A DNA stretch of 61,183 nt from Ferranicluibacter rubi (lineage in GTDB: Bacteria > Pseudomonadota > Alphaproteobacteria > Rhizobiales > Rhizobiaceae), in contig NZ_JAANCM010000018.1 in assembly GCF_011603255.1 (NCBI RefSeq), positions 1 to 61,183 on the forward strand. The letters run 5' to 3'. A program made the translations under genes and the position numbers. This document shows, one piece after another, positions 56,075 to 61,183 of this stretch. A model generated the notes under the pieces. The model was given only the letters and a program-made list of their open reading frames with translations. It had not been told where the DNA came from and did no database searches. Positions within the stretch are counted from its first letter, which is position 1. Every line of letters starts with the position of its first letter.

Positions 56075-56200
56075 TGTCCAGTCCCCCATCTTTTTAATTC
56101 AGAAGGAGAAGATGCTGTGCAAATGGTTTCTAATGTATGAGCGATGCGTCGCAAAGTTGCACGAAATGTCCGAAGACGAGCCGGGACGAGAGTCCGCAAC

Positions 56201-56215
56201 GAACCCGTCACAAAC
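56201..56215 (+). promoter_or_regulatory. Candidate LexA box upstream of uvrB
   Basis: gaac-ccgtcac-aaac deviates by one base from the alphaproteobacterial LexA site GAAC-N7-GAAC. It lies about 80 bp before the uvrB start. uvrB is SOS-controlled in several alphaproteobacteria; the call rests on that and on one near match. Confidence 0.4.
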
Positions 56216-56293
56216 TTGATCGCCCCCCGGGCGTCGTACCCGATGTGTTCTTCTCCCCTTCACTTTCGCCGAGACTCTCTCCATATTTCCGCC

Positions 56294-59200
56294 ATGGCCA
56301 GATCCCCGAAGAAAACAGCTGCTTCCCCGCGTGAGACATCCGGGTTCGAAGAAGCTCCCCAGGCGCCGTTCGAAGGCGCCCCCATATCCGGTTCCGTCGC
56401 CGACTGGGTGAAGCAGCTCGAAGCCGAGGCCGAGGCGACCTCGCACGAGACCCGCCGCGATGTCGCCTCGAAAGCCGGCAAGCACCGCAAGCAGGTCGAG
56501 ATCGCCGCCGCCAAGGCGAAGGCGAAGCCGGTCGAGCCCGCCCTCAAAACCTCGAAATCCGCGCGCGGCACCTCCATGGGCGGCGCCAGCGATCCGAAGT
56601 CGCGCGCCGCCGCCGGCCTGCCCGCGGTCTCCGGCATGGACATCTCGCTGGAGGACTCCGCCACCCTCGCGCCCGGCGCCGTCACCGCCACGGTGGATGC
56701 GCTGGCGAGCCTGATCGAAAGCGGCAATCCGCTGTTCAAGGACGGCAAGATGTGGACGCCGCATCGTCCCGCCCGCCCGTCCAAGTCCGAAGGCGGCATC
56801 CATATCGAGATGGTCAGCGAGTACCAGCCGGCCGGCGACCAGCCGACGGCCATCAAGGACCTCGTGGAAGGCCTCAACAATGGCGAGCGCAGCCAGGTCC
56901 TGCTCGGCGTCACCGGCTCGGGCAAGACCTTCACCATGGCCAAGGTGATCGAGGCCACCCAGCGCCCCGCCGTCATCCTCGCGCCCAACAAGACGCTGGC
57001 CGCCCAGCTCTATTCCGAGTTCAAGAACTTCTTCCCCAACAATGCGGTGGAGTATTTCGTCTCCTATTACGACTACTACCAGCCGGAAGCCTATGTGCCG
57101 CGGTCGGATACCTTCATCGAGAAGGAAAGCTCGATCAACGAGCAGATCGACCGCATGCGCCACTCCGCCACCCGCTCGCTGCTGGAGCGCGACGACGTCA
57201 TCATCGTCGCCTCGGTCTCCTGCATCTACGGTATCGGCTCGGTCGAGACCTACACCGCCATGGCGTTCCAGATGTCGGTCGGCGACCGCCTCGACCAGCG
57301 CCAGCTGCTGGCCGACCTCGTCGCCCAGCAGTACAAGCGCCGCGACATGGACTTCCAGCGCGGCAGCTTTCGCGTCCGGGGCGACACGATCGAACTGTTC
57401 CCCGCCCACCTGGAGGATGCGGCCTGGCGCATCTCCATGTTCGGCGACGAGATCGACGCCATCACCGAGTTCGACCCGCTGACCGGCAACAAGACCGGCG
57501 ACCTGAAGTCGGTCAAGATCTACGCCAACAGCCACTACGTCACCCCGCGCCCGACGCTCAACGCCGCCATCAAATCGATCAAGGAGGAGCTGAAGCTTCG
57601 CCTCGCCGAGCTGGAAAAGGCCGGCCGCCTGCTGGAAGCCCAGCGGCTGGAGCAGCGCACGCGCTACGACATCGAGATGCTGGAGGCCACCGGCTCCTGC
57701 GCCGGCATCGAGAACTATTCCCGCTACCTCACCGGCCGCCGCCCCGGCGAGCCGCCACCGACCCTGTTCGAATACATCCCCGACAACGCCCTGCTCTTCA
57801 TCGACGAGAGCCACGTCTCCGTCAGCCAGATCGGCGGCATGTACCGGGGCGACTTTCGGCGAAAAGCAACCCTTGCCGAATACGGCTTCCGCCTGCCCTC
57901 CTGCATGGACAACCGCCCGCTCCGCTTCGAGGAATGGGACGCCATGCGCCCCGATACGGTCGCGGTCTCCGCCACCCCGGCCGCCTGGGAAATGGAGCAG
58001 GCCGGCGGCGTCTTCGCCGAGCAGGTCATCCGCCCGACGGGCCTCATCGATCCCCCGGTCGAGGTGCGCCCGGCCAAAAGCCAGGTGGATGACGTGCTGG
58101 GCGAAATCCGCGAGACCGCCGCCAAGGGCTACCGCACGCTCTGCACCGTGCTGACCAAGCGCATGGCGGAAGACCTCACCGAATATCTGCACGAGCAGAA
58201 CATCCGCGTCCGCTACATGCACTCCGACATCGACACGCTGGAGCGCATCGAGATCATCCGCGATCTCCGGCTCGGCGCCTTCGACGTCCTCGTCGGCATC
58301 AACCTGCTGCGCGAAGGCCTCGACATCCCCGAATGCGCCTTCGTCGCCATCCTCGATGCCGACAAGGAAGGTTTCCTCCGCTCGGAAACCTCCCTCGTCC
58401 AGACCATCGGTCGCGCCGCGCGAAACGTCGACGGCAAGGTCGTGCTCTATGCCGACAAGGTCACCGGCTCCATGCAGCGCGCCATGGACGAAACCTCCCG
58501 CCGCCGCGAAAAGCAGATGGCCTATAACGAGGCCCACGGCATCACCCCGGAATCCGTCAAGGCGAAGATCTCCGACATCCTCGACTCGGTCTATGAGCGC
58601 GACCACGTCCGCGCCGACATCGCAGGCGCCTCCGGCAAGGGCTTCGGCTCCGTCGGCCACATGGTCGGCAACAACCTCGCCGCCCATCTCGAAGCGCTCG
58701 AAAAACAGATGCGCAACGCCGCCACCGACCTCGACTTCGAAACCGCCGCCCGCCTCCGCGACGAAATCAAACGCCTCAAAGCCACCGAACTCGCCACCAT
58801 GGACGACCCGATGGCCCGGCAGGAGGCAAAGGCCCAGGAAGGTTTTGTTAGCAAGGCCGACCAGAAGACCGCCAAGGCAAGAGACGCGGCGAAGGGGCAG
58901 GAAGTCGCCACCGGTAAATCGAAAGCTACGCGAGACCCGAATGCTACGGCAGACGAGGACGCAGACAGCGCCACGGGCGCCAGTCCTTCTCCCCGCGCGC
59001 CGGGAGAAGGTGCCCGCAGGGCGGATGAGGGGCAGCCACAACCCGCACCCTCCCTCTTCCGCCAGAACACCCTCGACAATATGGGCCCCGGCACCGACAC
59101 CGAACGCCCCCTCTTCCGCCGCAACGACCTCGACGAAATGACCGTCGGCCGCACCGAAAAACCCGTCCCCGGCGCCCTGCCGGTCAAACCCGACGCAGCA

Positions 59201-59371
59201 AAGGCCACGAAACGCTTCTCACCGCTGACGGAAGGCCTGCCGGAACAAGCCAAAGACGACCCGCGCCCGCTGGTTCGGGCGAAGGCGGGTGTCGGAAGCT
59301 ATGAGGATGCGGGGGATGTGAAGCGGCAGAAGGGGCGGACGAAGGGGAAGACCGGGCGGCCGGGGCGGTGA
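56294..59371 (+). CDS. uvrB: Excinuclease ABC subunit B
   Basis: DNA damage-binding helicase-like subunit of nucleotide excision repair. The protein has about 1025 residues against about 670 in E. coli. The first 170 residues are a Lys/Ala/Ser-rich extension; the core begins at [19 protein letters not shown]. Walker A is [12 protein letters not shown], the beta-hairpin [19 protein letters not shown], Walker [10 protein letters not shown], helicase motif [11 protein letters not shown], and the UVR domain [15 protein letters not shown] polar tail of about 190 residues follows, including a stretch encoded by palindrome module B. The ATG at 56294 ([14 protein letters not shown]) is preferred; earlier in-frame starts lack support. 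Confidence 0.95.
58987..59035. repeat. Palindrome module B inside uvrB coding sequence
   Basis: cttctccccgcgcgccggga plus gaaggtgcccgcagggcgga plus tgaggggc is the same module as in the intergenic clusters (compare 37586-37640). It is translated in frame as [18 protein letters not shown] in the disordered tail of UvrB. Confidence 0.85.
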
Positions 59372-59378
59372 GCAACAA

Positions 59379-60890
59379 CTAAAGCTGCCCATCAACCTCT
59401 ATAGTATGTAGTGCTGTTCTTAAGCTTTCCATAACTGTGTCTTCTAGATAGGCATAGAATGGTGATTTTAGGTCAACGTAGGGTATTTTGTTATCATCGG
59501 TATAATCTTGCAAGGTTCCTTCGTCGTCTTTACGTTTGTTACGTTGAAATAATTCGCGATATCTTCTTGGCGTTATTCCGAAGAAATGCGAAAAATCGAC
59601 AGAAGGATAATCATGATATTCACCGCGCTCTTGCCGGTCGATATTGATTGAATCTGCATGAAGACGTGACGCCAAGCTTTTCGGATAAGGCTCCAAATAG
59701 TAAACTTGGCTTATGCCACTGGAGACTATATGTTTTGCGCACATGTGACAAGGAAAGGTAGTTGTGTAAAGTACAGATCCAGACAAAGCGCCGCGCAAGC
59801 GGGCAGCATCTGTAATTGCTGACATTTCAGCGTGAACAATGCGCCCGTACTCCAACGCATCCATAAAACCAGTGTTACTTAGCCTTTTTAATTTTTCTGA
59901 ACTTAAAGAATCCATAGGTACATCGACTACCCGCAATATCTCTTCGAGTAGTTCCTTTTTTCGTCTATCGTTAGAGTCGGTTTTCCGTTGAAACTCTCGA
60001 TCATCATATTTTTCGTCCGGCCAGTAGGTTCCACCCCCGGCTTTCGGAACCTCGTTTGAACCGAGCGCTATTATTTCGCCTTTTGAACTGAAAATTGCTG
60101 CACCGACTTGACGCGAAAGATCGGAAGTTCGCAGCGCTGCAGACTTCGCTGCAAACATTCCATATTCCATTTTACTTGGAGTAATAGTATTAGAAGAAAA
60201 TAAAAGCTCAAGAAAACGATTAAGCTGCTCCACCAATGGTGGAGATCTAACATCGCGGTTCAGAACAAGATCCGCATCATGAAATATCTTGGCGACACGC
60301 TGCCCAAACGGCTCTTTCAATTGATTTTCATCAGTATCGACAAGCTGCTCAGCGCTTGATCGGAACGATGCATGTACCGCTTGTCCAGCGTCTTCGGCAA
60401 ATTTCCTAGCAAGATAATCAACTCTTGATGACCTCATTGAGTAAACAGATATTTGAAAAAATACTTTTCCATACACCGAGCGTAGCAAATCTATTTCTTC
60501 AGGCCTCTTAAATTGATGAACGATAAATACATTTTTGGTAAACTTATCGTTGCTAATATCACTTTTGTTCATTCGAGATTCAACGATAGACTGAACAGTG
60601 AGCGCAGCTAGAACAGATGGATCGTTGGCAAACTCTCTCAGTTGATTGCCATAGGATATATAGCTGTCATACCGCTTATTTAGAGGTTTATTTACAAGCT
60701 CTTTTCGTGGAACAACGATTTTTTCCATACGTTTAAAGAGGTCGGTAACACGAAGTTCATGGACGGTATAACCAACTGAGCTAAAAAACTTTTTTAACTC
60801 GGATATTGTTTCGACAAGGGGGGTTCCGATAGGGGACACCAAGCCTATCACTATCTCGGGAAATTCGATGCGAGGGATGAGTGGAGTCAT
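59379..60890 (-). CDS. Anti-phage dCTP deaminase
   Basis: About 503-residue two-domain protein. The N-terminal half (10-230) starts PEIVIGLVSPIGTPLVETIS, a P-loop-kinase-like fold whose loop lacks the usual Lys; it holds NVFIVHQFKRPEEIDLLRSV-YG, similar to the family of anti-phage dCTP deaminases. The C-terminal half is a deoxycytidylate deaminase with the zinc site VHAEMSAITD (His352, Glu354) and TFPCHMCAKHIV (Cys380, Cys383). Known homologues deplete dCTP to stop phage replication. Codons and G+C differ from the neighbours, which marks transfer. The start has a weak AAGG at 10 bases. It diverges from the 70-codon gene by 52 bp and converges with uvrB at 7 bp. Confidence 0.88.
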   Translation of the reverse strand: MTPLIPRIEFPEIVIGLVSPIGTPLVETISELKKFFSSVGYTVHELRVTDLFKRMEKIVVPRKELVNKPLNKRYDSYISYGNQLREFANDPSVLAALTVQSIVESRMNKSDISNDKFTKNVFIVHQFKRPEEIDLLRSVYGKVFFQISVYSMRSSRVDYLARKFAEDAGQAVHASFRSSAEQLVDTDENQLKEPFGQRVAKIFHDADLVLNRDVRSPPLVEQLNRFLELLFSSNTITPSKMEYGMFAAKSAALRTSDLSRQVGAAIFSSKGEIIALGSNEVPKAGGGTYWPDEKYDDREFQRKTDSNDRRKKELLEEILRVVDVPMDSLSSEKLKRLSNTGFMDALEYGRIVHAEMSAITDAARLRGALSGSVLYTTTFPCHMCAKHIVSSGISQVYYLEPYPKSLASRLHADSINIDRQERGEYHDYPSVDFSHFFGITPRRYRELFQRNKRKDDEGTLQDYTDDNKIPYVDLKSPFYAYLEDTVMESLRTALHTIEVDGQL

Positions 60891-60942
60891 GGCTGCAGCC
60901 TTCGAATCGTGAGAGTATGATTTTAATACAGGAGGTCACATC

Positions 60943-61155
60943 ATGGTTGTAAAATCAAACCCAACACTCGCGGCTCAGCTAGCGAATAAGAGGCTTGGAA
61001 GGGTCATATCATCACATCGAGATTATCTCTCTGACTGGAGAGCAGAGCGCTTTGATAGATCCTCCCTAATTTCCTACGTCAGTGGTGACGAAAATCAAAG
61101 CGATGTGATTATTCATCCCAACTCAGATTACAATGGCGACCTTATAAAGTCGTAG
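60943..61155 (+). CDS. Unrecognised 70-residue protein divergent from the defence gene
   Basis: Function not recognised. The product is MVVKSNPTLAAQLANKRLGR, VISSHRDYLSDWRAERFDRS, SLISYVSGDENQSDVIIHPN, SDYNGDLIKS: a basic first half that could be helical, and a polar acidic second half; no cysteine, signal or membrane segment. AGGAGG sits exactly 7 bases before the ATG, so it is surely well translated. A TATGAT (60916-60921) could be its -10 box. It shares a 52-bp divergent region with the dCTP deaminase, so a regulator, inhibitor or accessory of that gene is possible; this is inference. Confidence 0.65.
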   Translation: MVVKSNPTLAAQLANKRLGRVISSHRDYLSDWRAERFDRSSLISYVSGDENQSDVIIHPNSDYNGDLIKS

Positions 61156-61183
61156 TAACTGCAAACCGGAACAACCCACCCCC

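Follow-up and report, generated by a model that had tools for sequence, protein, structure and literature searches.

We report that the anti-phage dCTP deaminase gene at the end of the window (the whole stretch of DNA analysed here, which is an entire contig of 61,183 bp from Ferranicluibacter rubi) is adjoined by a divergent open reading frame (ORF) of 70 codons, and that a small gene in this position accompanies the deaminase in most members of a clade of its relatives. We believe, with a probability of about 0.5, that the pair is a divergent two-gene anti-phage module in which a small protein restrains the deaminase in place of the RNA AvcI. In the available parts of the published reports, AvcI is described as an RNA antitoxin upstream of avcD (PMC10511110, PMC9455884, PMC12409362) that holds AvcD off until the enzyme is freed when phage halts host transcription (PMC10511110, PMC12409362). 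Judged by its sequence, the enzyme is a member of the known AvcD-kind family of anti-phage dCTP deaminases; what is new in the clade is the divergent small gene. The literature searched, which did not extend to the founding papers of 2022, yielded no description of the small protein of this clade, and a prior description is possible.

The deaminase gene (59379..60890, minus strand) opens with ATG and encodes 503 aa. The preliminary description had assigned it to the anti-phage family from its letters, and the profile searches bear this out: NCBIfam NF041025 (“anti-phage dCTP deaminase”) reaches 436 bits, above its cut-off of 400, and the PADLOC dCTPase model matches at 7.5e-160. The same description had proposed a fusion of a degenerate P-loop-kinase-like half with a zinc deaminase half. 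Pfam matches are confined to the deaminase half; profile positions 1-435 of 437 of NF041025 align on residues 12-453, so that the family model covers the N-terminal half as well and the fusion is not a chance one. A 92% identical protein is found in Rhizobium sp. Leaf371, and one E. coli plasmid enzyme is about 33% identical.

The motifs of both halves, all on the minus strand, were compared in an alignment of 110 relatives, the window included. The P-loop-like loop GLVSPIGTP (residues 16-24; 60819..60845) lacks Lys, and Lys is absent from aligned residues 20-25 in all 110 proteins; the Lys-less loop is therefore normal for the family. The zinc and catalytic motif H353-A354-E355 (59826..59834) is invariant in 110/110, as are P380, C381, H382 and C384 of the second zinc motif, P380-C381-H382-M383-C384 (59739..59753). 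The claim of a Lys-less loop combined with intact zinc motifs thus holds; the number of the catalytic Glu has to be corrected from 354 to 355. The serine S49 of the published AvcD mutant presumably occupies a position in the Lys-less loop. The inactive version of AvcD is given, in the available part of the report, as the double mutant S49K+E376A (PMC10511110).

The small ORF, which comparison with relatives marks as a candidate partner or antitoxin protein of 70 aa, lies at 60943..61155 on the plus strand. A Shine-Dalgarno site AGGAGG (60930..60935, plus strand) precedes its ATG by 7 bases and is also present in Leaf371. Both start codons are separated by a gap of 52 bp (60891..60942), where the divergent promoters would be located at least partly; a promoter scan gave 3 sites against 3.6 expected, with none in this gap. 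The deaminase had been said to sit alone, which is not the case: the divergent ORF with its Shine-Dalgarno site adjoins it and is linked to it across the clade.

The Leaf371 counterpart of the small ORF has 68 codons. Within its first 42 codons, the window and Leaf371 show 6 differences at first, 3 at second and 19 at third codon positions; the region upstream of the small ORF shows 11 differences in 74 aligned bases, some of them within the deaminase gene. In 11 pairs of small ORFs aligned as DNA, with 83 out-of-frame bases set aside, differences amount to 195/622, 164/624 and 337/624 at codon positions 1, 2 and 3; most of these pairs were chosen for protein resemblance, which favours third-position change, while the window/Leaf371 pair is free of such a choice. 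The small protein is 62-64% identical where the enzyme is 92% identical, which indicates fast divergence. The counterpart on the Pararhizobium gei plasmid NZ_CP119410 is annotated as a hypothetical protein (WP_275791396.1). The small protein of the window has no family match in Pfam, NCBIfam, PADLOC or PHROGs, and therefore no function can be borrowed for it. Weak Pfam matches of the small ORFs were dismissed as noise, including T6SS_Tle1-like_C for the Leaf371 ORF (E 0.00072; 19.6 of 34 bits) and others with E of about 0.03 or worse.

The linkage of the two genes was assessed by a fixed rule: a divergent ORF of 45-110 codons with a Shine-Dalgarno site and a start at most 200 bp from the deaminase start; expected counts were taken from dinucleotide shuffles. 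By this rule the window's own ORF is found, with its start 52 bp upstream and AGGAGG before it. The sample was the 110 relatives that remained after dropping matches starting after query residue 15, loci with less than 290 bp upstream, proteins under 400 aa and repeated proteins; this filter also removed L038 and L050/L054, where the deaminase is in pieces and the small ORF is present. Among relatives at least 45% identical to the window deaminase the rule finds the ORF in 22/28 (2.1 expected), at 38-45% in 31/44 (4.3 expected), at 36.5-38% in 4/10 (1.1 expected) and below that in 2/28 (2.4 expected). In a “quick” tree of the 110 deaminases, midpoint-rooted for drawing, 70 proteins including that of the window fall on one side of a branch with SH-aLRT 98, and it is this side of the supported branch that we call the clade. 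The ORF is found in 56 of its 70 members (6.5 expected) versus 3 of the 40 outside (3.4 expected). As a control, same-strand ORFs, taken with no position limit and no shuffle value of their own, occur in 5/70 and 9/40, respectively.

Inspection by eye changed some labels: L073, L074, L076, L079 and L084 were raised, L106, L139 and L153 were lowered, and L125 was already negative, which gives 61/70 in the clade and 0/40 outside. A resemblance test, for which no eye is needed, asks for a divergent ORF of 38-115 codons having a phmmer relative (E at most 0.001) before another deaminase, and it gives 57/70 versus 0/40. The 13 clade members that lack such an ORF include L064 and L081, which also fail the fixed rule; among the five raised labels, L074 has no relative before another deaminase. 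Relaxing the rule (at least 38 codons, Shine-Dalgarno site not required) reveals an ORF in 7 of the 9 negative-labelled clade members, six of these ORFs having a relative before another deaminase and the one in L121 having none. The resulting 68/70 is not relied on, because under the relaxed rule some ORF also turns up in 12 of the 15 viral loci that fall outside the clade.

Viral contigs served as a fresh sample, in which 35 of 39 loci were examined and L242-L245, with short weak matches, were left out. The nearest relative falls in the clade for 20 of the 35. By the fixed rule, 12 of these 20 have the ORF versus 1 of the 15 others; the resemblance test gives 19/20 and 4/15, where the four make up two pairs of near-copies. 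Near-copies inflate the linkage counts. Among the 20 clade loci, 3 repeat at 100% identity proteins counted before, and several more are near-copies of one another. For two viral loci, L226 and L235, identity to the nearest member of the tree is only about 46%. The viral loci carrying the deaminase together with a divergent small ORF are L207-L221, L223, L224, L226, L235 and L240; prophages may spread the pair.

Several sequence types can be told apart among the small proteins: one like [HQ]xxYxxW, which includes that of the window, one like RRGPxxI, and smaller groups. That all of them form a single family of one origin was considered but is not supported, since no alignment is obtained between types A3 and A4 (hhalign gives a probability of 0.2%). 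In seven loci of the RGP type, a conserved DNA block lies between both starts (alignment A5, columns 303-312; A6, columns 42-50), with GGAAC in 7/7 and GGAACTTAA in 5, and this may be an operator or promoter element.

Profiles of the small proteins were also run against 337 genomes of the order, with at most 18 candidates scored per genome, so that misses are possible. Among the candidates scored, A4 gave 5 strong matches and A3 gave 3, and 8/8 stand next to a deaminase. Six of these belong to the profiles themselves; the two non-members, in genomes G129 and G220, stand next to deaminase copies that are in pieces. Broken deaminase copies have thus kept a divergent small ORF at their side (L050/L054 in G220 and L038 in G129). 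Weak matches elsewhere (E above 0.001) number four for A4 and one for A3.

We presume that the module acts as follows. The 503-aa deaminase, once active, would drain deoxycytidine nucleotides and so limit phage DNA synthesis, an activity expected from its family. The 70-codon ORF probably encodes a real, fast-changing small protein of the module, as its linkage and coding pattern among relatives suggest. This protein would most likely bind and restrain the deaminase as a labile antitoxin, taking the role played by the RNA AvcI in Vibrio and E. coli; when phage shuts off host gene expression, the resupply of antitoxin would stop and the enzyme would be freed. The short divergent promoter region could balance both genes against each other. 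A small protein replacing AvcI as a labile inhibitor is, we infer, the simplest reading; the observed pattern would look no different if the protein regulated transcription, served as a cofactor or sensed phage.

Other explanations have to be weighed against this. That the enzyme is a housekeeping deaminase (ComEB, TadA or dCMP deaminase) carrying an unrelated extension is hardly credible. The deaminase half does resemble dCMP deaminases in the PDB (2w4l, the best match, E 1.2e-8; 1vq2, E 2.5e-7), and human CDADC1 (9hfq) is matched at E 0.0048; against this, NF041025 is above its cut-off over its whole length, whereas ComEB reaches 44.7 of 219.45 bits and TadA 13.4 of 150, so a better match to a housekeeping family, which the preliminary description had named as a refutation, was not what the search returned. 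The distribution of the deaminase is also patchy, relatives being present in 26 of 397 genomes drawn from the order (E 1e-20) and in 13 of 398 genomes of the phylum and 15 of 385 of the class (1e-40), with the window's own genome included in each count. We consider it very improbable that this is an ordinary single-gene dCTP deaminase next to an unrelated small ORF. Such a view has on its side that PADLOC and NCBIfam yielded one model for the deaminase and none for the small protein, but it is contradicted by the association over 110 relatives and the viral contigs and by the position of all eight strong profile matches next to a deaminase. Chance as the origin of the small ORF was likewise rejected, in view of the shuffle expectations and the contrast between the inside and the outside of the clade.

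The regulator may instead be an AvcI-like RNA from this region, with the ORF incidental, and we regard this as unlikely. It has a precedent in AvcI itself, the RNA antitoxin upstream of avcD in the available parts of the reports (PMC10511110, PMC9455884, PMC12409362). Set against it are the third-position excess in the small ORF, seen in the window/Leaf371 pair and in the 11 pairs, and the weak consensus folds on both strands in two groups of loci: -5.4 and -2.2 kcal/mol for seven loci of the RGP type, 0 and -0.04 kcal/mol for five of the window type. The best match in a search of Rfam was mir-4677 at E 0.23, far under the gathering score; the RNA search was run without an AvcI model or sequence, and its failure to find an RNA is no proof of absence. 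The view of the small ORF as RNA only was set aside on the grounds of the folds and the codon pattern. In a possible alternative, to which we give tentative weight, the small protein would serve the enzyme in another way: by autoregulating the divergent pair, by acting as a positive cofactor, or by sensing phage as a subunit of the deaminase. The divergent layout with a short shared gap, the conserved block between the starts in seven RGP-type loci (GGAAC, mostly GGAACTTAA) and the fast divergence of the small protein all agree with it; on the other side, no DNA-binding family was found among the matches of the small protein, and the persistence of the small ORF beside the broken deaminases of G220 and G129 is no less expected of an antitoxin than of a sensor.

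In 6 of 48 loci outside the clade, and in 0 of 70 inside, the deaminase is preceded by a same-strand ORF of 57-79 codons with similar tails ending in Trp: SKSLKW twice, SKKITW, SKIDW, SKLDW and QKLTW, encoded by differing codons. Three of these SKxxW-tail ORFs are at L159:705-887, L246:695-877 and L247:709-894, and the others are upstream of the deaminase in L135, L138 and L252. The organisms include E. coli (two loci), K. pneumoniae and V. coralliilyticus; other gammaproteobacterial loci, e.g. those of V. nigripulchritudo, Pantoea and Pseudomonas, lack such an ORF. The ORFs lie upstream of the enzyme, as the RNA AvcI is reported to do with respect to avcD, and, if they are translated, the RNA view of AvcI may be incomplete. 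Start-codon changes in the upstream region reportedly left the inhibition intact in studies of AvcI, which speaks against a same-strand protein. It is tempting to propose, although we find it rather doubtful, that anti-phage dCTP deaminases are generally two-protein systems with a small fast-changing inhibitor, divergent in the alphaproteobacterial clade or same-strand in some gammaproteobacteria, and that the defence is triggered when a labile protein, and not just an RNA, is lost.

The setting of the locus was clarified as follows. The neighbour of the deaminase is uvrB (56144..59371, plus strand; named from sequence), which is convergent with it, the stop codons being 7 bases apart, and this order is kept in Leaf371. 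The GC content falls from about 0.65 to 0.52 and 0.43 over the last two kilobases profiled, and the deaminase does stand beside uvrB, as had been stated, in DNA of low GC. The proposed junction between core and accessory DNA did not hold. The deaminase is at the end of the contig; in Leaf371 it occupies the same place and is followed by a SnoaL-like gene (name from sequence), and in the genome of the window that gene is at the extreme end of another contig (C6). The ends of C6 and of the window contig (C9) map side by side on a single Leaf371 stretch, so the “junction” is an assembly break. The insert between uvrB and the SnoaL-like gene is about 1.8 kb as read from these sequences.

In relatives, the 3' side of uvrB (window 59372-61183; L182-L193, L024, L025) is a cargo site. 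Genes from listed defence families occupy it in seven of 15 genomes (14 and the window's own), which counts in favour of an anti-phage module: the window-type deaminase in the genome of the window and in that of Leaf371 (G003), a 36% identical deaminase in G022, Drt2 reverse transcriptases in G001 (6.3e-114) and G002 (1e-120), a GmrSD_N/NsnA-like protein in G009 (NsnA 9e-23) and a “beta” protein in G016 (4.2e-43). The cargo of G004, G005 and G017 (L184:1433-2812, L185:485-1593 and L193:1219-2980) has no PADLOC or Pfam match at E 0.01, and these genes are candidates for undescribed defence genes. The family search covered 10 cargo proteins from 7 genomes, the cargo or flanks of G006, G010, G014, G015 and G020 being left out; an empty uvrB site was not found among the genomes of the genus examined.

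Within the literature covered, the control of nucleotide-draining enzymes has so far been described for the RNA-controlled branch. A clade-wide linked small gene offers a two-gene handle on this control in rhizobia and other Alphaproteobacteria, and it allows control by RNA, by protein or by both to be tested. Cloning the deaminase alone from the branch of the window may omit its control, and tools for finding defence systems gain a second gene to look for.

Among known proteins, human CDADC1 (9hfq) and the dCMP deaminases (2w4l, 1vq2) share the zinc deaminase core; the difference is that their matches are limited to the deaminase half of the window protein. The anti-phage dCTP deaminases of Tal et al. 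2022 are said to belong, by name, to the same NCBIfam and PADLOC families, and the divergent small gene is absent from the family models examined. The deaminase beside uvrB in G022 (L025) resembles that of the window in family (474.7 bits) and in its neighbour; however, it is 36% identical, lies outside the clade and has no divergent small ORF by the rule. The closest comparison is with AvcID of Vibrio and E. coli, a type III toxin-antitoxin system, with which the window shares the enzyme family, the zinc half and the Lys-less loop, as well as a regulator, putative in the window, encoded directly upstream of the enzyme as far as the available part of the report describes it (PMC10511110). The published regulator is an RNA according to that part, whereas the candidate in the window is a divergent ORF of 70 codons, and the groups of loci that were folded gave no conserved RNA structure.
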